In this document: piece after piece, positions 626 through 25,760 of the stretch | Layout of the letters: every line of letters starts with the position of its first letter | Numbering within the stretch: the first letter of the stretch is position 1 | DNA from: a virus | DNA: 31,382 bases | IMG/VR virus record: IMGVR_UViG_3300044655_001388 | Coordinates: 1-31,382 of that record | Strand: one strand, 5' to 3' | Made by a program: the position numbers and the translations under genes | The notes under the pieces: model-generated | Seen by the model: only the letters and a program-made list of their open reading frames with translations | Database searches by the model: none | What the model was told of the DNA's origin: nothing

Positions 626-1954
626 TTGGGTCAGTTAAAAGATAAATTTAATGCAAGAAAAGATTATGATGTTTATGGTCCATCTTGGTTAGGATTTTCA
701 AAAGATGGAGGTGAGCGTCCTAAATTTTCTTATTCAGATCCAGATTTGCCATCCTTATACGCAGAATACTTTATAGACTCTTGGAACGTAATTCCTCTTT
801 ATGGCAAAGTAGATACTCTTGGCATACCCATTATGCCAAAAATGGGTTTGGTTACTTTTTGTTCTTATACGAAAGACCCAAATAGAGTTTTTTTAGTTCA
901 ACCAGCAATAAATTTTTATAATTCTTTTAGAGAACAATATGAGGATTATTATGCTCTCGGAGCAATAAATAAAAATTCAAAATTCTTTAAAAAGACAATA
1001 CCACCAGTAAAAGGACATATTGATGGAGATGTTGAATATTATAATAAAGTAAAACAGTTATATAATCAATTTTTTAATTACGAGGTTGTAAGTCAAAATT
1101 CAAAATTATCAAAACTGTGGTCAACAAACGCATCTAACAAAATTAAAAATTTTGACGATTTTATTAATGAATTAGAAAACTATATTTCTTTTAATAATTT
1201 ATATTTTACAAGAGCAGGATATGTTGAATCAACTGATTATTCTTTGCTACATTCTGGTTTAGCAGTTGAAATATATAATGGAGATTCTTCAAATGATCCA
1301 TTAAGAGAAGAATTTGTTAATGATGTAAACTTCCCATCTTTTATTGAACTATGTGCAAGAAATAATCTTAAGTTAGACAGAGAAAAACCCTGGAGAGTTT
1401 ACGTTGACGTTAGAACCACTCCAAATAGAAATAATTTTAATAATAAATTTAATATATCTAACTTTCAAAGTAGCATAACACAGTATTTGCCACACTATAA
1501 AAATATTCAAGACTTCTTTGACTTCTATTATGCAAGAGCAATACCATACGATGAAGTTTCTTTTGTTTATTTTCAAGAATTTATAAACCTAATCAATTCT
1601 TTTTATAAATCTTTTATAGAAAGTTTCCCAACTTTTAAATTTTATTCTATAAATGAGTGTGGAAAAGCAACAGTAAAAGAGATTCAAAGAGGTTTAATGC
1701 CTACTTTAAGTGTAGATAAATACCTAGAACTATACTTAAGAATGAGAAATATAGAGTTGAAATATTCTGTTAATAAAGAAAAACTACAGGAACTTACAAA
1801 GCAATCTATTGAATTATACAAAAGTTTAGAAAAAGAACAGGGTTTACAAAATTCAGTTATTTTTGCTGTTAAATATTATACAGACAACATTGGAACCCTT
1901 GCTTATCGCAACCCTTCGCTCTACGAACTTGACGAGAAAGAAAAGATGCCCTAA
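626..1954 (+). CDS. Hypothetical protein, probably late/structural (442 aa)
   Basis: I do not recognise this protein. The TTG start is supported by a good Shine-Dalgarno sequence (AGGAG, 613-617) 8 nt upstream and by direct continuation from the previous gene. The product is rich in Asn, Phe and Tyr, with no signal peptide or clear membrane segment. The N-terminal part contains W-L-G-F and P-x-Y-G-K-V-D turns. The middle is helical with many aromatics (F-F-D-F-Y-Y-A-R), and the C-terminal third has Lys/Glu-rich helices. It continues the operon of the truncated gene before it and ends 9 nt before the polymerase gene. Structural function is a guess from context. Confidence 0.7.
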   Translation: MGQLKDKFNARKDYDVYGPSWLGFSKDGGERPKFSYSDPDLPSLYAEYFIDSWNVIPLYGKVDTLGIPIMPKMGLVTFCSYTKDPNRVFLVQPAINFYNSFREQYEDYYALGAINKNSKFFKKTIPPVKGHIDGDVEYYNKVKQLYNQFFNYEVVSQNSKLSKLWSTNASNKIKNFDDFINELENYISFNNLYFTRAGYVESTDYSLLHSGLAVEIYNGDSSNDPLREEFVNDVNFPSFIELCARNNLKLDREKPWRVYVDVRTTPNRNNFNNKFNISNFQSSITQYLPHYKNIQDFFDFYYARAIPYDEVSFVYFQEFINLINSFYKSFIESFPTFKFYSINECGKATVKEIQRGLMPTLSVDKYLELYLRMRNIELKYSVNKEKLQELTKQSIELYKSLEKEQGLQNSVIFAVKYYTDNIGTLAYRNPSLYELDEKEKMP

Positions 1955-1963
1955 GATGGTGCC

Positions 1964-3142
1964 ATGCTTTTTGAACTAGTTGACTCAAAACAGAATTGTA
2001 ATAGTTGCTTCGTTGATGGAAATATCAGCGACTATGCTTCTTTAGAAAATCCAACGCATACTTGGGATTATTCACCAACATTTGAGAACAGACAAATGGA
2101 ACTTGCCTGCCTTTATGCTGGCACAAAGAATATTGAAGATGCTTGCTCTCACGAACTTAGAGAAAGATACTTGTCTCTTAGATCTCGTTTGAAAGCATTT
2201 ATGAAGTCTTTTATTACAGCACAAGTAAATTTAAAAGAAAATTGCTTCTTTGATCTTGTTCCAATTACTTTTGTTCATGAACTTTTTTCTGTCCGCTCTT
2301 TGATTATGAAAGAGATATTTGAAACAAAGAAAAGACCAGATAATTATGACTTTCTCTACAATCTTAACAAGATGATTTATGAAATCTCTGAAAAGGAGAT
2401 AAAGATTGAGATGAAAAATTTGCCTGTCATTGGAGAGATCCGCAATGCAAGCAAAATGAAGAAGAAAGTTAAATACAACATGTTTGGAACAATTACCGGT
2501 CGTCTTTCGACAGAACAGGATAGTTTTCCAATTCTAACAATGAACAAGAATCTTCGTTGCATTGTTGAGCCGAACAATGATTTCTTGCTGGAACTTGATT
2601 TTAATGCTTTTGAACCAAGAATTCTTCTTGCCCTCAACGGAAAAAAACAACCAAATACGGATCTACACGAATGGAACAAGGACAATATCTTAATTGGAAC
2701 CAGCAGAGACGGAGCAAAGAAGAAGTTCCTAGCATGGATGTATGATGAGAGAGGTACTACTACACTACCCCCTCTACAAGAGAAGAAGATCAAATTTTTC
2801 TATGATAAAAATCTTGTAAAGAGTAAATACTATGATGGTTGCTTGGTTAAAAACCATTACGGCAGAGAAATAAAAGCAGACAAAGAACACGCCTTAAATT
2901 ACATCATACAGAGCACCGCTTCTGACTGCTTCTTGCGGAGAATGGTTGAGGTAAATAATCTCTTAAAAGGTAAGAAATCCTTTGTTAAATTCTTGATTCA
3001 CGACTCAGTTGTGATTGATATGTCTGTAGAAGAAAAGAATCTTGTAAAAGATATATGTAATGTGTTCTCGAACACAGACTTTGGTAAATTTATGATTACA
3101 AAAAAGATTGGTAAAAATTATGGAGATATGAAAAAACTATGA
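1964..3142 (+). CDS. Family A (Pol I-type) DNA polymerase, polymerase domain only
   Basis: The C-terminal half carries the family A signatures: T-G-R-L-S at 178-182; motif A with catalytic Asp212 followed by F-x-x-F-E-P-R; motif B R248-x3-K252-x7-Y260; a Q-S-T-A-S-D segment (about 316-321) matching the Pol I 'Q-G-T-A-A-D' helix; and motif C H346-D347-S. Asp212 and Asp347 would bind the two metals. At 392 aa it is far shorter than E. coli Pol I or T7 gp5. The first ~160 residues show no DEDD 3'-5' exonuclease motifs, so proofreading is absent or supplied elsewhere. The position matching Pol I Phe762/T7 Tyr526 is Leu256, which is unusual. It overlaps the next gene by 4 nt and heads the replication block. 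Rhodothermus phage RM378 also has a polymerase separate from its exonuclease, as far as I recall. Confidence 0.88.
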   Translation: MLFELVDSKQNCNSCFVDGNISDYASLENPTHTWDYSPTFENRQMELACLYAGTKNIEDACSHELRERYLSLRSRLKAFMKSFITAQVNLKENCFFDLVPITFVHELFSVRSLIMKEIFETKKRPDNYDFLYNLNKMIYEISEKEIKIEMKNLPVIGEIRNASKMKKKVKYNMFGTITGRLSTEQDSFPILTMNKNLRCIVEPNNDFLLELDFNAFEPRILLALNGKKQPNTDLHEWNKDNILIGTSRDGAKKKFLAWMYDERGTTTLPPLQEKKIKFFYDKNLVKSKYYDGCLVKNHYGREIKADKEHALNYIIQSTASDCFLRRMVEVNNLLKGKKSFVKFLIHDSVVIDMSVEEKNLVKDICNVFSNTDFGKFMITKKIGKNYGDMKKL

Positions 3143-3963
3143 ATGTTCTTGGACTTGGTAAAGGCGGTTGTTCTATCGCTGATTTGTTCTCTCAGTATCC
3201 AGAGTACAAGGTTTTCAAAGCAGATGCTGGAATAAAAGGTAAAAATTGTCTTACAATTCCACAATGTTCTTCGATCGAACAATATGAAGAGAAACTACCA
3301 GAGTTTAAACAACTCTCAAAGTTAAAAGGAGAGACTCTATTTGTTATTTGTGGTGGCGGAAATGTATCAGGAGCAACCCTAAAACTACTAGAGCAGGTAA
3401 AACATACAGAAATAACAATTCTTTATATTCGTCCAGATCCGAACCTTATCTCGGCAGAAATAGCAATGAAAGATAAAGTTACTTTTGGCATTCTACAGGA
3501 ATTTACCAGGAGTAGCTTATTTAAGAAAATGATTCTGATCTCAAATTCTCAGGTTGAAAATCTACTTGGTGGATTATCGGTAATGGAATATTATGATAGT
3601 CTAAACAAGGTAATTGTTTCGACTCTCCACATGACAAATTACCTCTTGACAGCAAATAATGTCTTTGGTAAGATGTCAGCGGAAAGAGACTTGGACAGAA
3701 TTTCTACTATTGGCATCGTAAACAACGAAGACGGAACAGAGAGTTATTTATATAACCTTGATTCACCAAGGCAAAAAATATTTCTCTATGCTATTAAAGA
3801 GAGTGACTTGACAACAAACAAAGAGTTGATTAAGATGATTCAACAGCAGACGAAAAGTTCGTACTCTGGTACAGAATTGGATATTTCATACAAAATCACA
3901 ACGACAAACTATGAATCCAATTTTGTTTACATTATTTCAAATACCAACATTATACAACAATAA
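3139..3963 (+). CDS. Possible tubulin/FtsZ-fold protein (candidate)
   Basis: A 274-aa protein with features reminiscent of the tubulin/FtsZ GTPase domain. There is an N-terminal G-x-G-K-G-G loop after a beta strand (residues 5-10, like the T1 loop). A K-A-D-A-G follows strand 2 (28-31). A glycine loop C-G-G-G-N-V-S-G-A (71-79) sits where tubulins have GGGTGSG, after the hydrophobic strand L-F-V-I. Asn156 lies in a helix where the guanine-contacting Asn is expected. The catalytic T7 loop (NxDxx[DE]) is not clear; E-R-D-L-D-R (182-187) is the nearest match and ends in Arg. Its start overlaps the polymerase stop (ATGA), and gp32 follows 11 nt later. Phage tubulins (PhuZ, TubZ) exist but are usually larger. 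A Rossmann-like nucleotide-binding protein is the alternative. Confidence 0.45.
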   Translation: MNVLGLGKGGCSIADLFSQYPEYKVFKADAGIKGKNCLTIPQCSSIEQYEEKLPEFKQLSKLKGETLFVICGGGNVSGATLKLLEQVKHTEITILYIRPDPNLISAEIAMKDKVTFGILQEFTRSSLFKKMILISNSQVENLLGGLSVMEYYDSLNKVIVSTLHMTNYLLTANNVFGKMSAERDLDRISTIGIVNNEDGTESYLYNLDSPRQKIFLYAIKESDLTTNKELIKMIQQQTKSSYSGTELDISYKITTTNYESNFVYIISNTNIIQQ

Positions 3964-3974
3964 AGGAAAAAACA

Positions 3975-4724
3975 ATGGCTATTGACATTAAAAAAATGCG
4001 TGAAAAACTAAATAACCTCAATAACAAAAGTGGCGCAAAAGGTAAGACCACACAATACTGGAAACCAGTTGATGGTGCGGATTCAACCATCCGTATTCTT
4101 CCAACTGATGACGGTGATCCTCTAAAGGAGTTCTATTTCCATTATCTTCGCACCGAGAAGAAGTTTCAGAGTGTTCTATGTCCAAAGAAGAACTTTGGTG
4201 AGAACTGTCCAATGTGTGATCTCGTTTCCAAACTCTACAAAGAGGGCGACGAGGAAAGTCGTAAGCTCGCCAAGGATATGACTGCCAAGCAGAGATTTTT
4301 CTCTCCAATCATCGTTCGCGGTGAAGTTGAGAAGGGTGCCCAAATCTGGGGATACTCCAAGACCATCTACGAAGAACTACTCAAGTTGATGCTCAACCCT
4401 GAGTATGGCGATATTACTGACACTGACGAAGGTTTGGACTTGGTTGTGTCTGTGTCTAAAAAGTCAGGTAAACTCTATCCCGAGACCAGTTTGACACCAA
4501 AACGTAAATCTTCTCCTCTTGCTGACAAGAAAGAGACAATTACCGAACTAGTTAATCATGGAACTGATTTCGACTCGTTGTTCGAGCGAAAAACAGCAAG
4601 TCAAGTTGCCGAGATCCTTGATGAATTCCTTAATGGACCGAGCGATGAAGGAGGTGATCCCACCAATGCTACGGACGATGGCGGTCAAGATTTAGATTCC
4701 GCCCTTAAAGATCTTAATGTTTAG
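3975..4724 (+). CDS. 32: Single-stranded DNA-binding protein, T4 gp32 type
   Basis: Coats single-stranded DNA during replication, recombination and repair. The zinc site matches T4 gp32 closely: His followed 13 residues later by Cys, then Cys 9 later, then C-x2-C (H-x12-C-x8-C-x2-C, about residues 56-81), next to aromatic OB-fold strands (F-Y-F-H-Y). The basic N-terminus (K-K-M-R-E-K-L, residues 6-12) fits the cooperativity region. The C-terminal ~30 residues are strongly acidic and end in D-L-D-S-A-L-K-D-L-N-V, the part that in T4 contacts polymerase and helicase partners. At 249 aa it is somewhat shorter than T4 gp32 (301 aa). Codons here end in C/G more often than in neighbouring genes, as expected for a highly expressed protein. 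A terminator/promoter element follows directly. Confidence 0.93.
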   Translation: MAIDIKKMREKLNNLNNKSGAKGKTTQYWKPVDGADSTIRILPTDDGDPLKEFYFHYLRTEKKFQSVLCPKKNFGENCPMCDLVSKLYKEGDEESRKLAKDMTAKQRFFSPIIVRGEVEKGAQIWGYSKTIYEELLKLMLNPEYGDITDTDEGLDLVVSVSKKSGKLYPETSLTPKRKSSPLADKKETITELVNHGTDFDSLFERKTASQVAEILDEFLNGPSDEGGDPTNATDDGGQDLDSALKDLNV

Positions 4725-4727
4725 CAC

Positions 4728-4756
4728 TTGACTAATTGGGGTTGGTAGGGTAAAAT
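4728..4756 (+). promoter_or_regulatory. sigma70-type promoter for uvsX, -10 in terminator loop
   Basis: TTGACT (4728-4733), a 17-nt spacer, and TAAAAT (4751-4756). The -35 starts 3 nt after the gp32 stop codon. The -10 fills most of the loop of the hairpin at 4739-4766, so RNA started here (about 4763) would lack the left arm and not terminate. Confidence 0.8.
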
Positions 4757-4771
4757 CTACCAACCCTTTTT
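4739..4771 (+). terminator. Intrinsic terminator after gp32
   Basis: A perfect 10-bp stem (GGGTTGGTAG, 4739-4748, with CTACCAACCC, 4757-4766), an 8-nt loop and a T-run. It ends the transcript from 1964-4724 and contains the -10 box of the next promoter in its loop. Confidence 0.9.
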
Positions 4772-4784
4772 ATTTGGAGACAAA

Positions 4785-5939
4785 ATGGCAAACGTAAAAA
4801 AGAAAGATAAAGAAACAAAAGGCAGAGTGTCTATTCAACAAATGAGAGATATTCTCAACAAAAAGGCTGGCGCGGTGGTCGCATACAGTCTAGAAGAGTC
4901 TAATCCAACTGATGTAGATGAATGGATTCCGACAGGTTCTCGATGGTTAGATTCTATTATCTGTAAAGGTAAGATCTCTGGTATTCCAATGGGCAAGATT
5001 GTTGAACTTGCTGGTTTGGAAGCAGCAGGTAAATCTTATATGGCAGCACAAATCGCAGCACATGCACAACAAAAGGGTATTGACGTAGTCTATTTCGATT
5101 CAGAGTCTGCAATCGCTTCAGACTTCATGGAGAAGGTTGGTTGTGATCTATCCACTCTACTTTATGTTCAGGCAAGATCAGTTGAGTTTGTGTTAGAAAC
5201 AATTGAAGAACTTCTCGCAAACAACCAAAATAAGATGTTGTTTATTTGGGACTCGATTGCATTTACACCAACAGAGACAGACGTAGAGGGAGACTTCGAT
5301 CCACAATCATCAATGGCAGTCAAACCGAGAATTTTATCAAAAGCATTCTCGAAACTGATTCAACCTTTGGCAAATAGCGGCAGCACCCTGCTCTGCCTCA
5401 ACCAGTTGAAAACAAACATCACCAGAAGCCCGCAAGAGGCCCTTCTAAACCCGTATTTTACTCCAGGCGGTAAAGCCTTGGCTTATGCTTATTCTCTTCG
5501 CATTTGGCTCACAGCGAGAAAAGGAAAGGCAAGTTTCATTCTTAATGATGCTGGGTTCAGAATTGGTAATGAGGTCAAAGCAAAGATTGAGAAGTCCAGA
5601 TTTGGTACACAAGGTCGAGAATGTACATTCAAAATTCTTTGGGGTGGTGACGACATTGCGATTCAAGATGAAGAATCTTGGTTTGAGGCAATTAAAAACT
5701 CTGACAAACTAAAACAATCTGGTGCTTGGTATACTTTGGTATTTGAAGACGGAAAAGAAGTTAAGTTCCAATCAAAAGATTGGATTGACAAGTTAAAAGA
5801 CAAAGAGTTTAGAGAACAAGTATTAAGATTGATGGATAAAGAAGTAATCCAGAAGTTCGATTCAAGAGAAGGAAATGCTAAGAACTTCTACAATATCGAC
5901 GGAGAGGATGAAGAAGAAGTAGAACTTGATGAAGAATAA
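4785..5939 (+). CDS. uvsX: UvsX/RecA-type recombinase
   Basis: An ATP-dependent strand-exchange protein that forms filaments on ssDNA cleared of gp32; in T4 it drives recombination-dependent replication and repair. The core shows Walker A G-L-E-A-A-G-K-S (77-84, K83), catalytic Glu107 in F-D-S-E-S, Walker B M-L-F-I-W-D (151-156) and the L-N-Q-L motif after L-L-C. The N-terminus is Lys-rich and the C-terminus ends in an acidic tail, as in RecA/UvsX. At 384 aa it is close to T4 UvsX (391 aa). It has its own sigma70-type promoter directly upstream and a GGAG Shine-Dalgarno sequence. A second terminator/promoter element follows the stop, so it is a one-gene early transcription unit. Confidence 0.95.
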   Translation: MANVKKKDKETKGRVSIQQMRDILNKKAGAVVAYSLEESNPTDVDEWIPTGSRWLDSIICKGKISGIPMGKIVELAGLEAAGKSYMAAQIAAHAQQKGIDVVYFDSESAIASDFMEKVGCDLSTLLYVQARSVEFVLETIEELLANNQNKMLFIWDSIAFTPTETDVEGDFDPQSSMAVKPRILSKAFSKLIQPLANSGSTLLCLNQLKTNITRSPQEALLNPYFTPGGKALAYAYSLRIWLTARKGKASFILNDAGFRIGNEVKAKIEKSRFGTQGRECTFKILWGGDDIAIQDEESWFEAIKNSDKLKQSGAWYTLVFEDGKEVKFQSKDWIDKLKDKEFREQVLRLMDKEVIQKFDSREGNAKNFYNIDGEDEEEVELDEE

Positions 5940-5945
5940 TCTTGC

Positions 5946-5975
5946 TTGACAAGAAGCCCAAGGTTGGACTATAAT
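5946..5975 (+). promoter_or_regulatory. sigma70-type promoter upstream of the 6009 gene
   Basis: Consensus TTGACA (5946-5951), an 18-nt spacer and consensus TATAAT (5970-5975). It starts 6 nt after the uvsX stop. The -10 lies in the loop of the hairpin at 5957-5989. It should drive the 6009-8599 operon. Confidence 0.88.
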
Positions 5976-5995
5976 GGTTCCACCTTGGGTTTTTT
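5957..5995 (+). terminator. Intrinsic terminator after uvsX
   Basis: CCCAAGGT (5957-5964) pairs with ACCTTGGG (5982-5989). GG/CC extends the stem past a one-base bulge, and TTTTTT (5990-5995) follows. The -10 box of the next promoter is in the loop. Confidence 0.88.
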
Positions 5996-6008
5996 ATTAG
6001 GAGTTGAC

Positions 6009-6284
6009 ATGTCCGATATACACCGAAAACAACTTGAAAATCTTGGAAGCATAAAAGTTACAAAGATTAAAGAAAAGAAAGATGGATCAGCAAAGATCAC
6101 TTTCAGTGTTAGTGAAGACTTCATAAGGTCTTACAATGAACTTTATCATCTGGCAGAATGGGATCAGAAACACTTTGAGCAAACAATGATCTCTGCTGTT
6201 GGAGAAGCAATGGTAAAAGAAAGCAGAAAGAACGAACAAGACCCTGATTTTCTGTGGTCTCTTCCAAAGGATAATAATGAGTAA
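6009..6284 (+). CDS. Small hypothetical replication-operon protein (91 aa)
   Basis: The ATG at 6009 is chosen because AGGAG (5999-6003) lies 5 nt upstream. The longer open frame from 5946 begins inside the promoter -35 and runs through the terminator, so it is not credible. The product is a small, mixed-charge helical protein beginning M-S-D-I-H-R-K-Q, with a basic beta-prone stretch (K-V-T-K-I-K-E-K-K, about residues 16-24) and a C-terminal helix rich in Glu, Lys and Asn. There is no Cys, membrane segment or known motif. It is the first gene of the unit that also encodes the FEN nuclease (overlap 8 nt) and helicase, so an accessory replication role is plausible but unproven. Confidence 0.75.
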   Translation: MSDIHRKQLENLGSIKVTKIKEKKDGSAKITFSVSEDFIRSYNELYHLAEWDQKHFEQTMISAVGEAMVKESRKNEQDPDFLWSLPKDNNE

Positions 6285-21246: not shown

Positions 21247-22067
21247 CACCATTATACAACAACTATACTGCCCTTCATCGTAGTGTTCTTGAGTGCGCAA
21301 TGGCGGGTTGTTCTTCTATCTGGGTAATAACTGAAAAAAGATATATACCACTTATGAAAGCAGTTGTTGGTTGTTATGTTGAAGATCCAATTCTTGCTCA
21401 ATTACCTGTAGAGTTCAAAGATAATTTCTCAATGAGGATTCCAATATGGTATACTTCGTTACCAGTCAGAGATTTAAAGCGAAGAGAATGTTATGGAAGA
21501 ACAATCTTAGCGGGAGCAGAGTATGCAACAAGAGTGGCAAATGGTTTAAGTGAAAACCTAAAACCAGGAAAGTTTTATGTTTCTTTCCCCGAGTCTGTCT
21601 ATTCTCCCTGGGTTCTACAAAAAGATAGAAAGAAGATTAAGAGTTCAGATAAAAATTTCTTTATCACCCATGAAGGTAAATCAATAAAAGATGGATTGCC
21701 TCTTGGATTCACAATGTTTAAAGAAGATTTTGACAGATACAAACTCGATTTTAAATCGAGAGATCAAGGATCGTGGATGGGAGAGACACTCAAAGATCTT
21801 AGACGAAGACCAATAGAAGAGAGGAATTTGGCCTCTAAACTCACCCTTGACGAAATATTCAGGTCTGCTACACTAGAGGGGTCAGTCCTTAGAGAACTCA
21901 TAGTTTATTCCAATATCTCAACTTGGGATGGATATGTTAAGTATCTTACAAAAGGACACTTCTACAAAATGCCAAAGAAAGTCAAGTATTTCAGGTATAA
22001 TAAAATGAAAAACCTAGAAGAAAGACCAATACAAACAGGGGATTATGAACACGATGACCAGAACTAA
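21147..22067 (+). CDS. Nucleotidyltransferase-like conserved phage protein
   Basis: The N-terminal region I-S-H-M-V-G-I-V-P-I...W-P-K-C-L-T-P-L...A-L-H-R-S-V-L-E-C-A-M-A-G-C-S-S-I-W-V-I resembles the sugar-nucleotidyltransferase fold (strand, G-rich turn, P-K-x-L-x-P-L, helix, A-G-x-x-x-I-x-V-V). The Mg-NTP signature G-G-x-G-T-R is absent (P-I-Q-N-G-P-T-N instead), so activity may be lost or altered. The C-terminal part is basic and ends E-H-D-D-Q-N. The start is uncertain: ATG 21147 is used, ATG 21180 keeps all the conserved part, and ATG 21111 is also in frame; none has a strong Shine-Dalgarno sequence. It overlaps the preceding gene by up to 100 nt. I recall homologues as uncharacterised in T4-like phages. 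Confidence 0.7.
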   Translation: MEGSQNKYISHMVGIVPIQNGPTNDGLPWPKCLTPLYNNYTALHRSVLECAMAGCSSIWVITEKRYIPLMKAVVGCYVEDPILAQLPVEFKDNFSMRIPIWYTSLPVRDLKRRECYGRTILAGAEYATRVANGLSENLKPGKFYVSFPESVYSPWVLQKDRKKIKSSDKNFFITHEGKSIKDGLPLGFTMFKEDFDRYKLDFKSRDQGSWMGETLKDLRRRPIEERNLASKLTLDEIFRSATLEGSVLRELIVYSNISTWDGYVKYLTKGHFYKMPKKVKYFRYNKMKNLEERPIQTGDYEHDDQN

Positions 22068-22355: not shown

Positions 22356-25300
22356 ATGGGAATCAAGTTTGTAAATTTACACGGCCATAGTTGTTTCAGT
22401 GTGTTCGATGGACTTGGTTTCCCGAATGAACACATTGATTTTGCTTATGGTAATGGAGCAGATGCTCTTGCGTTGACCGATCACGGCAACATGAATGGTT
22501 TGTCTTATCAAGTTCTTCACACGAAGAAGATGAAGGCAGAAGGAAAGAACTTTAAACCAATCTTTGGTGTCGAGTCATACTTCATTCCATCCATTCCAGA
22601 ATGGAAAGAGGCATACGATAAATACAAAGAAGAAAAGAAGTCAAAGAAAAACGACGATGAAGAATCCGGAATTGTCGTAGAAGATGAAGAAGAATCAAAG
22701 AAGGATGAAAAGAGTTTCATTAACTTTCGTGCTCACTTGGTTCTTCTTGCTCAAAACCAGAAAGGTCTATCAAATATTTTTCAGTTGGTTTCCAAGTCTT
22801 ACAATCCAGGAAACTTTTATCGGTTTCCTCGTCTAGATTATGAAATGCTTAAGCAACACAGCGAGGGTGTTATTGCCCTGACTGCTTGCATGGGCGGTCC
22901 TTTGTCTAAATGCTTCTGGCAACACAAAGACGAAGGCGAAGAAAAGGTTCTGGAAGAAATGACCAAAGTTGTCAAGAACTTCAAGGCAATTCTTGGTGAT
23001 CGTTTCTATTGTGAACTACAGTGGAATGCTTATCATGAGCAACATGAGATTAACAAATTGGTAATCAAGGTTGCCAAAGAAAACGGTGTTAAACTTGTTT
23101 CCACTTGCGACTCTCACTATCCTCGTCCTGATCTGTGGAAAGAGCGAGAAATCTACAAGATGCTTGGATGGTTGGGTTCAAAGAATATGTCTTTGGATTC
23201 TCTTCCATCAAAGCGTGAAGAACTGATGTCTGAACTCTATCCTAAGAATGGACAGCAGATGTGGGACGCTTATAAAAAGTATTCCACTCAGACATTTAAC
23301 GAGTATGATGACGATCTTGTTCGCGAGTCGTTCGAGAATACTTGGAAGATTGCTCACGAACAGATTGAGGAGTTTCTACCGGATACAACGGTTCGTCTAC
23401 CTTCTTTCGTTGTTCCAGAGGGTAAGACAGACGTTCAGGCTTTGATTGAATTATGTTCCTCCTCTATGAGAAAGAAAGGCTTGGACAAAAACCGCGAATA
23501 CATCGAAAGACTTAAAGAAGAACTCACTGTTATTAAAGACCGTGGTTTCTGTAAGTATTTCTTGACGATGAAAGCGATCGCTGATAAAGCCGTTGAGAAT
23601 CAACTTGTTGGTGCTGGTCGTGGTTCGGCGGCGGGTTCTCTTGTATCTTATCTTCTGAATATTACTCAGATTGACCCAATCAAGTATGGTCTTCTGTTTA
23701 GTCGCTTCCTGCAAAAGAATGCCAAGGATTACCCAGATATTGACTATGACACAAGCGATCCAATGACGCTGAAACAAATGTTGATTGAAGAGTGGGGTCA
23801 AGATTCGGTTGTTCCAATCTCAAATTGGAATACTCTACAACTTCGTTCTCTAATTAAAGATGTTGGCAAGCTTTATGGTATTCCATTCACGGAGGTAAAT
23901 GATACAACTTCTGTCATGGTTAAGGAAGCAACTGCTCCTGCCAAAGAAAGACATGGTATTACTGCTGGTGTTTACACTCCAACATTTGAAGAGTGTTTGG
24001 AGTTCTCAACAACCTTACAGAAATTTCTTGCCAAATATCCAGAGGTCGGCAAGCATATTAAAGCATTACAAGGTCAAGTAAGATCCGCATCAAGACATGC
24101 GGGTGGAGTTATTGTATCGGAGAACATTTCACACTTCATGCCACTAATTAATAGTGGTGGAGTAACTCAAACACCTTGGAGCGAGGGACAGAATGTTAGA
24201 CACTTGGAACCTCTTGGGTTTATTAAGTTTGATATTCTTGGCCTCGCAACTCTTCGTATTATTGAGAATACGATCCGTAGAGTCCTCATTAAACAAGGTA
24301 ATGCAAACCCCACCTTCAAAGACATCAAAACCTTCTACGAACAGAATCTCCACCCGTCAACAATAAACTTTGACGATCAAAAGGTCTATGAACATGTATT
24401 CCATGAAGGACGATGGGCGGCGATCTTTCAGTTCGCTGAGAAGGGCGCTCAAGAGTTTTGTAAACGTGCAAAGCCTCGTAGTATTATTGATCTTTCTGCT
24501 ATTACTTCTATTTATCGCCCAGGTCCATTGTCGGCAAAAGTGGACGAAAATTATGTCACGGCTAAGGAAGATCCGAGTTCAATCAAATATCTACATCCAA
24601 TCGTTAAGGAAATCACAGAAGAAACCGCAGGGTTCCTAATATTCCAAGAACAAATTGCTTTGATTGCTCACAAGTTGGGCAAAGATCTAACTTTGGATGA
24701 AGGTAACTTACTGCGTAAAGTCCTAACCAAGAAAGGCACAGGTAAAGGACACGAGGTTAAAGATGAGATTCACACAAAGTTTATTGAAGGCTGTCTCGAA
24801 AAAGGTATTCAACAAGAAGATGCTCAAAACCTTTGGCAGACATTTGAGTTCTTTTCCGGTTACGGTTTTAATAAGTCTCACGCCGTTTGCTATAGCATTC
24901 TTTCTTATCAGTGTGCATGGCTTCTTACTTATTATTCAAATGAGTGGATTGCTTCATACCTAGACGACGAAAAGGATGATGGTAAATCAAAAGCAATCTC
25001 AATCGTTAAGTCGCTTGGATATGAAGTTGAACCACCAAATGTAAATAACTCTGGCGATCAATGGGAATGCTCAAGCAATGGCAAAACTTTCTATCAACCT
25101 TTGAGTTCAATCAAAGGTCTTGGTGAGAAAGCGATTGAACAGGTAATTAATAATCGCCCATTTAAAACAATTGATGACTTACTTTTTAACGATAAAATTG
25201 CTTACACCAAACTCAACAAAAAAGGTTTGGATGCTCTTGCTAGATGTGGAGCGCTAGATGATCTAATGGATAATCGCTTCACTGGTCGTAAACATTTCTG

Positions 25301-25760
25301 GATGTCTTTCTGCGATGAACGACCAAAAACAAAGAAGAAGTTTGATGCTTATATTGAGCAGTTCAAAGGAGAGGGTGACTTCTCAAGAAATGAAGTGATC
25401 AACAATTGTGTTGAACTTCTCGGATTCTTTCCAGTGACGATGGTTATGAGTCCTCAGTTATACAAAAGATTAGAGGACAGCAATGTTCCATCTATCTCAA
25501 AGTATGATTCAGAACTACAAGTATGCTGGTTTGTTCCAATCTCGTTTGAAACAAAAAGATCTAAGAATGATAAAAACTATTATGTTGTAGATGTTGTTGA
25601 TGACACCGGAAAGACAACTGAGGTTAAGTGCTGGTCTGTTGATACAGAGAAAGATGTGATTTATCTCAATCGTCCTTATGTTGCAAAACTTAATTACGAT
25701 GAAAACTTTGGTGGATTTTCTTGCATAGGAATTTCTAAGAGTTGGAAGATGGTTGGATAG
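22356..25760 (+). CDS. dnaE: DNA polymerase III alpha subunit (DnaE, family C) with intact PHP domain
   Basis: A full-length replicative polymerase of 1134 aa (E. coli DnaE 1160). The N-terminal PHP domain keeps a full set of metal-ligand motifs: H9-x-H11, D42-H43, E73, H127, C178 and D252-S-H254. Intrinsic 3'-5' exonuclease activity is therefore plausible, unlike E. coli DnaE. An acidic/Lys insert (about 90-120) interrupts it. The palm has G-R-G-S (421-424), catalytic D461 and D463 (P-D-I-D-Y-D) and D626 (K-F-D-I-L-G-L). S-G-Y-G-F-N-K-S-H-A is in the fingers, a helix-hairpin-helix (I-K-G-L-G-E-K-A-I) follows, and an OB-like domain ends the protein. AAGGAG precedes the ATG. No beta clamp, tau or epsilon gene was seen in this window. 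Confidence 0.97.
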   Translation: MGIKFVNLHGHSCFSVFDGLGFPNEHIDFAYGNGADALALTDHGNMNGLSYQVLHTKKMKAEGKNFKPIFGVESYFIPSIPEWKEAYDKYKEEKKSKKNDDEESGIVVEDEEESKKDEKSFINFRAHLVLLAQNQKGLSNIFQLVSKSYNPGNFYRFPRLDYEMLKQHSEGVIALTACMGGPLSKCFWQHKDEGEEKVLEEMTKVVKNFKAILGDRFYCELQWNAYHEQHEINKLVIKVAKENGVKLVSTCDSHYPRPDLWKEREIYKMLGWLGSKNMSLDSLPSKREELMSELYPKNGQQMWDAYKKYSTQTFNEYDDDLVRESFENTWKIAHEQIEEFLPDTTVRLPSFVVPEGKTDVQALIELCSSSMRKKGLDKNREYIERLKEELTVIKDRGFCKYFLTMKAIADKAVENQLVGAGRGSAAGSLVSYLLNITQIDPIKYGLLFSRFLQKNAKDYPDIDYDTSDPMTLKQMLIEEWGQDSVVPISNWNTLQLRSLIKDVGKLYGIPFTEVNDTTSVMVKEATAPAKERHGITAGVYTPTFEECLEFSTTLQKFLAKYPEVGKHIKALQGQVRSASRHAGGVIVSENISHFMPLINSGGVTQTPWSEGQNVRHLEPLGFIKFDILGLATLRIIENTIRRVLIKQGNANPTFKDIKTFYEQNLHPSTINFDDQKVYEHVFHEGRWAAIFQFAEKGAQEFCKRAKPRSIIDLSAITSIYRPGPLSAKVDENYVTAKEDPSSIKYLHPIVKEITEETAGFLIFQEQIALIAHKLGKDLTLDEGNLLRKVLTKKGTGKGHEVKDEIHTKFIEGCLEKGIQQEDAQNLWQTFEFFSGYGFNKSHAVCYSILSYQCAWLLTYYSNEWIASYLDDEKDDGKSKAISIVKSLGYEVEPPNVNNSGDQWECSSNGKTFYQPLSSIKGLGEKAIEQVINNRPFKTIDDLLFNDKIAYTKLNKKGLDALARCGALDDLMDNRFTGRKHFWMSFCDERPKTKKKFDAYIEQFKGEGDFSRNEVINNCVELLGFFPVTMVMSPQLYKRLEDSNVPSISKYDSELQVCWFVPISFETKRSKNDKNYYVVDVVDDTGKTTEVKCWSVDTEKDVIYLNRPYVAKLNYDENFGGFSCIGISKSWKMVG

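Follow-up and report, generated by a model that had tools for sequence, protein, structure and literature searches.

The replication operon of an uncultured marine virus lineage with T4-type capsids contains a short gene for a divergent member of the tubulin/FtsZ superfamily, and this gene, which we refer to as the short tubulin gene, is a core gene of the lineage. For identity and role together, the best explanation is a minimal tubulin that scaffolds replicating phage DNA; we hold this account with moderate confidence, which averages a near-certain identity and a much less certain role. The gene and its surroundings in the analyzed stretch of 31,382 nucleotides (the window) are as follows.

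1964-3142, + strand: upstream neighbor, a short family A DNA polymerase (polA) of 392 residues (PF00476, E = 7.2e-11)
3139-3963, + strand: short tubulin-superfamily gene, 274 residues (AlphaFold2 model, Foldseek and VIA matches, at least 185 relatives)
3975-4724, + strand: downstream neighbor, a gp32-like single-strand DNA-binding protein (PF08804, E = 1e-17; phrog_1192, E = 9.7e-30)
4738-4767, + strand: terminator-like hairpin after gp32, with a 12 bp stem and a T-rich tail, the likely end of the operon

Start and end of the short tubulin reading frame are exactly those of the original prediction, and its ATG overlaps the stop codon of polA (ATGA). A scan of IMG/VR with the single sequence as query identified 7 relatives, and a scan with an alignment as query at least 185. 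There were no relatives among 50,697 phage records, and a conserved-motif scan of GTDB genomes did not find any either. Conservation was counted in an alignment of 47 diverse members, in which ten positions are invariant (G7, E47, L81, L84, L119, Q120, E121, R124, S125 and Q273). Among the close relatives that were compared, dN was 0.11-0.26 while dS was saturated at 1.6-3, which indicates strong purifying selection and hence a functional gene.

In order to obtain the fold, an AlphaFold2 model of the window protein was built with the 47-member alignment (pLDDT 93.9, pTM 0.91). In this predicted structure, the elements follow the order S1-H1-S2-S3-(short helices)-S4-loop-H4-S5-H5-S6-H6-long H7-S7-S8-H10-S9-S10, which is the tubulin/FtsZ order. 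Each of the 50 best matches listed by Foldseek in the PDB was an FtsZ or a TubZ (lowest E = 3.5e-13, probability 1.00), and the 50 rows listed by VIA consisted of CetZ, TubZ, FtsZ or tubulin throughout, with Z-scores of 20.8-24.2 over nearly the whole model. VIA alignments over residues 1-274 gave Z = 24.2 and rmsd 3.0 for CetZ (3zid, 253 aligned residues), Z = 23.8 and rmsd 3.2 for TubZ (4ei7, 270 aligned), and Z = 22.9 and rmsd 3.5 for FtsZ (2r6r, 263 aligned), scores that are near ties. In BFVD, the viral proteins matched best were phage tubulins, including an FtsZ from an uncultured Caudovirales phage. A second model took the most divergent clade as its seed (L064, 34 sequences) and agreed with the first (pLDDT 93.7, Foldseek E = 2.2e-12, Z = 23.1 to CetZ), and the two-domain tubulin/FtsZ fold with the long central helix H7 was present in both. 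The N-terminal domain of the protein is of the GTPase type, and the C-terminal domain is small. Structure prediction had been suggested as a check, one that would count against a tubulin if it confidently gave a different kind of fold, for instance a plain Rossmann fold; the result was tubulin.

Some viruses of the lineage also encode a second, canonical tubulin, which we call type B. Among 12 records with the short tubulin gene, PF00091 was found elsewhere above its cut-off in 3 and below it in a fourth. The following type B genes are named by locus.

L108:1039-2073, L109:1033-2082 and L111:988-2028, - strand: type B tubulin genes
L129:5959-7032, + strand: type B tubulin gene beside gp23
L118:1315-2427, - strand: more divergent type B gene of about 371 residues, whose sequence matches short tubulin genes of two other records

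Type B proteins are typically about 344 residues long, contain the signature GGGGGTGS and an invariant T7 pattern D234-x-x-D237, and match CetZ (3.2e-10) and PF00091 (best E = 5.5e-8). At least 189 type B loci occur in IMG/VR, and none was found in the phage records searched. By its sequence, the protein of L118 links the short tubulin and type B families. All 7 type B records of at least 127 kb contain the short gene. Conversely, four genomes of 183-193 kb (G001, G002, G004 and G005) contain the short gene with no detectable type B, suggesting that type B is apparently not needed. No type B gene was seen in the window record, an absence that is uninformative at 31 kb.

Sequence homology was assessed by profile comparison. 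With hhalign, the 47-member alignment matched a profile of FtsZ and type B tubulins with E = 1.4e-7 (probability 94%, score 60.9, 183 columns), and 20 column-shuffled profiles scored at most 19.1 and a reversed profile 19.2. Comparison with type B alone gave E = 1e-6. Eight FtsZs alone gave P = 0.0078, which became 1.4e-7 when the type B tubulins were added; with PhuZ there was no detectable profile match (P = 0.25). In a tblastn-type search, one type B protein matched inside two short tubulin genes with values of 5.8e-6 and 4.4e-5 (G013 34303-34491 and G017 21615-21794, within genes L067 and L011). Comparison of single sequences with E. coli FtsZ gave a best E of 0.02, too weak a match to settle the question. 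No family of PHROG, Pfam or NCBIfam exceeded its cut-off for the short tubulin. PF00091 did not match the window protein and matched 2 of 47 members below its curated cut-off (best E = 0.01); a Pfam cut-off is a library threshold and not a biological feature. TIGR00065 (ftsZ) matched 5 of 47 members, with a best E of 2.8e-4, and two traced members gave 0.015 and 0.096; these matches form no part of the case for homology. The profile comparisons provide statistical support for sequence homology to the tubulin/FtsZ superfamily. Together with the two confident models, they bear out the tubulin/FtsZ-like identity proposed originally, and we regard membership in the superfamily as nearly certain. 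Since the fold and the homology were found but the strict sequence motif was not, we classify the protein as a divergent member of the superfamily rather than as a canonical tubulin or FtsZ. A plain Rossmann protein of the NAD type (TrkA-N/saccharopine dehydrogenase type) with tubulin-like motifs by chance, hinted at by weak matches to TrkA_N (7/47 members, best E = 0.0027), Sacchrp_dh_NADP (5/47, best 0.0011) and KtrA (E = 0.0026), has a negligible probability, being contradicted by the full-length matches of both models to tubulins, H7 and C-terminal domain included, and by a profile score far above the shuffled controls.

The elements of the protein that bear on nucleotide binding and subunit contacts map to the window as follows.

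3151-3180, + strand: T1-like loop GLGKGGCSIA (residues 5-14; family consensus G-L-G-x-A-G-C-N-I-A), aligned to FtsZ GVGGGGGNAV
3352-3375, + strand: T4-like loop GGGNVSGA (residues 72-79), a degenerate tubulin signature, aligned to FtsZ GGGTGTGA
3493-3513, + strand: family hallmark LQEFTRS (residues 119-125) at the end of helix H5, with L, Q, E, R and S invariant (47/47)
3544-3546, + strand: N136 at the T6 position (E. coli FtsZ N165), placed by alignment and present in 41/47 members
3580-3651, + strand: long central helix H7 (residues 148-171) with Y152 and N156 (E. coli FtsZ F182 and N186), from DSSP, conservation and alignment
3652-3699, + strand: region in place of the T7 loop and helix H8 (residues 172-187), from both models and conservation
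3700-3960, + strand: C-terminal (activation) domain (residues 188-274), from model and conservation

Three motifs had been noticed in the original prediction, and each recurs across the family. The N-terminal G-x-G-K-G-G loop (G5-L-G-K-G-G10) follows strand 1, with G5 in 45 of 47 members and G7 in all. K8 is found in just 17 of 47 and is therefore not a P-loop lysine; position 12 of the same loop is S in the window protein and N in 23/47. The C-G-G-G-N-V-S-G-A loop (C71-A79) follows a hydrophobic strand (residues 65-71) and retains G72 in 45/47 and S77 in 40/47 members. Across the family it reads G-[SGA]-[GS]-x-[IV]-S-x-A, so that the strict signature [SAG]GGTG[SA]G is absent (GGGNVSG in the window protein), with the family loop degenerate but aligned. 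The asparagine expected at a guanine-contact position of a helix is N156 (45/47), and position 152 is Y, H, F or W in 44/47. Residues N165, F182 and N186 of E. coli FtsZ are guanine contacts in established FtsZ structures, and judging from the alignment, these positions (the T6 asparagine, and the aromatic residue and asparagine of H7) are kept in the short tubulin. Conservation across 47 diverse homologues argues that the motifs are more than chance, and the predicted nucleotide pocket appears to be retained. Binding of a guanine nucleotide is probable, although the affinity may be low or absent, because the glycines of the T4 signature are partly lost (GGGTGTG to GGGxxSG).

The other side of the canonical active site is gone. 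H7 (residues 148-171) and S7 (residues 188-194) are separated by 16 residues that contain neither a helix nor a conserved acid, indicating that T7/H8 is absent. The T7 loop had been described as degenerate, and the catalytic acids have indeed disappeared; the description was an understatement, however, since T7/H8 is missing altogether in the two models and across the 47 members. In tubulin protofilaments, T7/H8 completes the active site of the neighboring subunit. The subunit contact in protofilaments of phiKZ TubZ, tubulin and FtsZ is formed by T7, the base of H8, and S9 (PMC3678025). The C-terminal tail is absent as well, with the protein stopping 0-8 residues past the invariant Q273 in the 47 members. 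The predicted absence of T7/H8 makes a non-hydrolyzing protein plausible, and we consider it highly probable that there is no canonical hydrolysis; GTP binding without such hydrolysis is the likely state predicted for the short tubulin. Filament formation cannot be assumed, because the loss of T7, H8 and the tail removes the known longitudinal contacts. The most conserved stretch of the protein is LQE[YF]TRS, which has no counterpart in FtsZ. From the fold topology, H5 is expected to end on the face opposite the nucleotide, which would make LQE[YF]TRS a candidate contact surface.

Comparison with known systems places these losses in context. PhuZ/phiKZ TubZ of the chimalliviruses (for example 201phi2-1) is, like the short tubulin, a phage-encoded tubulin fold, and a role in organizing replicated phage DNA may be a further likeness. 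However, PhuZ keeps the GGGSGS signature and T7/H8, whereas the short tubulin has neither T7/H8 nor a tail and belongs to a virus with a T4-type capsid. PhuZ requires an acidic C-terminal tail in order to polymerize (PMC3678025), and no tail of this type was present in the 47 members. TubZ of Bacillus plasmids and phage partition systems shares the fold (Z = 23.8, 4ei7) but differs in possessing T7/H8 and a C-terminal tail, which is reported to be needed for TubZ assembly dynamics (PMC5322520). TubZRC-type iterons were not found at positions 1500-5200, and no TubR-like neighbor was recognized in the operon, where polA and gp32 are the flanking genes. With FtsZ the protein shares the fold and the aligned T1, T4, T6 and H7 positions, whereas it lacks the NxDxxD T7 loop, H8, any counterpart of the GAGANP segment, and, in all 47 members, the C-terminal conserved peptide and linker. 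Archaeal CetZ gave the best structural score, tied with TubZ; relative to CetZ the losses are the same, and no link to an archaeal host was seen. Type B of the same lineage is homologous and occurs in some of the same genomes, but has the canonical GGGGGTGS and D-x-x-D T7 and adjoins gp23 in the locus examined. The short tubulin is thus not a member of FtsZ, PhuZ or TubZ, since it lacks the T7/H8 and the tails by which these are defined.

PhuZ and TubZ are phage tubulins already known, and to our knowledge the known phage tubulins are filament-forming GTPases of nucleus-forming jumbo phages or of partition systems. Two distinct jumbo-phage FtsZ/tubulin representatives have been described, with cyanophages listed as having no tubulin homologue (PMC7824862), and the marine jumbo-phage tubulins reported are of the phiKZ type (PMC9123017). 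In the open-access literature searched, there was no report of the short tubulin family. Within this literature and the collections searched, the expectation that such a gene would be new for a T4-like phage holds.

The predicted location between polymerase and gp32 proved to be general, as polA and gp32 flank the short tubulin gene in every informative locus. In the examined loci, as far as the contigs extend, the operon reads polA - short tubulin - gp32 - recA - exonuclease - DnaB - RNR, and nine more records, located by way of type B, also keep polA - short tubulin - gp32. The synteny with polA and gp32 is evidence of linkage, not of function. The capsid is of the T4 type, since gp23 was found in 11 of 12 records tested; despite this capsid, the replication genes of the lineage (family A polymerase and DnaE) are not those of T4.

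Several other features of these loci were noted. Motif C of the family A polymerase is HDS instead of the usual HDE, and the polymerase role of the product of 1964-3142 may therefore be unusual. The window virus also encodes a DnaE-type polymerase III alpha (22356-25760). Three related loci of one sub-clade carry an extra gene of about 143 residues before gp32, placed between short tubulin and gp32 at L005:6895-7326 and L006:6891-7328 (143-145 residues). A perfect match to a sigma-70-type promoter (TTGACA-18-TATAAT) lies at 5946-5975 of the window, immediately past the recA-like gene. Because the TTG start of the reading frame 5946-6284 falls within this match, that start is probably wrong. 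A related operon was found in two cultured phages, Microcystis phage Mel-JY01 and Flavobacterium phage immuto, and both lack the short tubulin. The Mel-JY01 gene before gp32 (L102:12406-13692) is not a tubulin and matches the S-adenosylmethionine lyase family PF23780 (E = 4.4e-10); annotated as hypothetical, it is a possible counter-defence gene. A search of the Mel-JY01 genome with a type B protein found nothing. In immuto, the two small genes between polA and gp32 had no tubulin match.

The findings suggest that the protein is of the cytoskeleton type and is connected with the replication of viral DNA. We propose that the short tubulin, made together with the polymerase and the single-strand DNA-binding protein, would bind guanine nucleotide without hydrolyzing it by the canonical cross-subunit mechanism, and would act as an assembly unit, slow or static, or as a GTP switch. 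The invariant LQE[YF]TRS surface would replace T7/H8 as the main contact with a partner or with itself, and the protein would scaffold or position replicating phage DNA, performing a job like that of PhuZ or TubZ by different means. In our judgement, scaffolding or positioning as the role, taken by itself, falls a little short of an even chance.

A phage partner is favored over a host target because of the replication operon, the core status, and the family-specific invariant motif. If the target were nevertheless in the host, the protein might be an antagonist of division, a T7-less FtsZ mimic that caps the ends of host FtsZ protofilaments via its intact nucleotide face and so stops the host from dividing while infected. 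With the nucleotide side kept but T7/H8 missing, a tubulin fold should be able to take on just one neighbor. Several near-complete genomes encode the short protein with no second tubulin found, so that only the host could supply a tubulin partner in these cases. Inhibitors of division, however, are mostly encoded by small accessory genes, whereas the short tubulin is a core gene inside a replication operon; LQE[YF]TRS without an FtsZ counterpart and the very low pairwise similarity to FtsZ also speak against mimicry. Even with the precedent of phage FtsZ inhibitors, namely lambda Kil (PMC3961180), T5.008 (PMC10714956) and T7 Gp0.4 (PMC13423816), we consider an antagonist unlikely.

The invariant polA/gp32 neighborhood would also suit a nucleotide switch in the replisome that is not cytoskeletal, a monomer or dimer on the tubulin fold regulating the polymerase or the single-strand DNA-binding protein. 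The lack of a tail and of T7/H8, and an invariant patch absent from filament-forming tubulins, are consistent with such a switch. We know of no precedent of this kind for a tubulin fold, however, and assign the switch a low probability. An alpha/beta-like mixed polymer, in which type B gives the catalytic acids, would make use of the GGGGGTGS signature and invariant D234-x-x-D237 of type B, and would fit the presence of the short gene in all seven long type B records. This co-occurrence may, however, just reflect the core status of the short gene, the two genes lie in separate modules (replication and capsid), and the four genomes of 183-193 kb manage with no detectable type B, leaving a mixed polymer very unlikely.

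Scaffolding of replicating DNA by a minimal tubulin is thus the reading that we retain. A tubulin relative that has lost the element for catalysis and longitudinal contact is found in the core replication operon of a large uncultured lineage with T4-type capsids, raising the questions of what a tubulin fold does without T7/H8, whether replication sites are positioned by a cytoskeleton in phages of ordinary size, and why some of these viruses have two tubulins. As a small protein with fixed motifs, the short tubulin is directly amenable to bench work. Tentatively, and with more doubt than conviction, we suggest that a widespread ocean virus lineage with T4-type capsids may use a catalytically stripped tubulin in its core replication machinery, with an assembly surface based on LQE[YF]TRS and sometimes beside type B. 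If true, this would be a new mode of function for the tubulin superfamily, in which hydrolysis is not the driving force and the protein is connected with the replisome.
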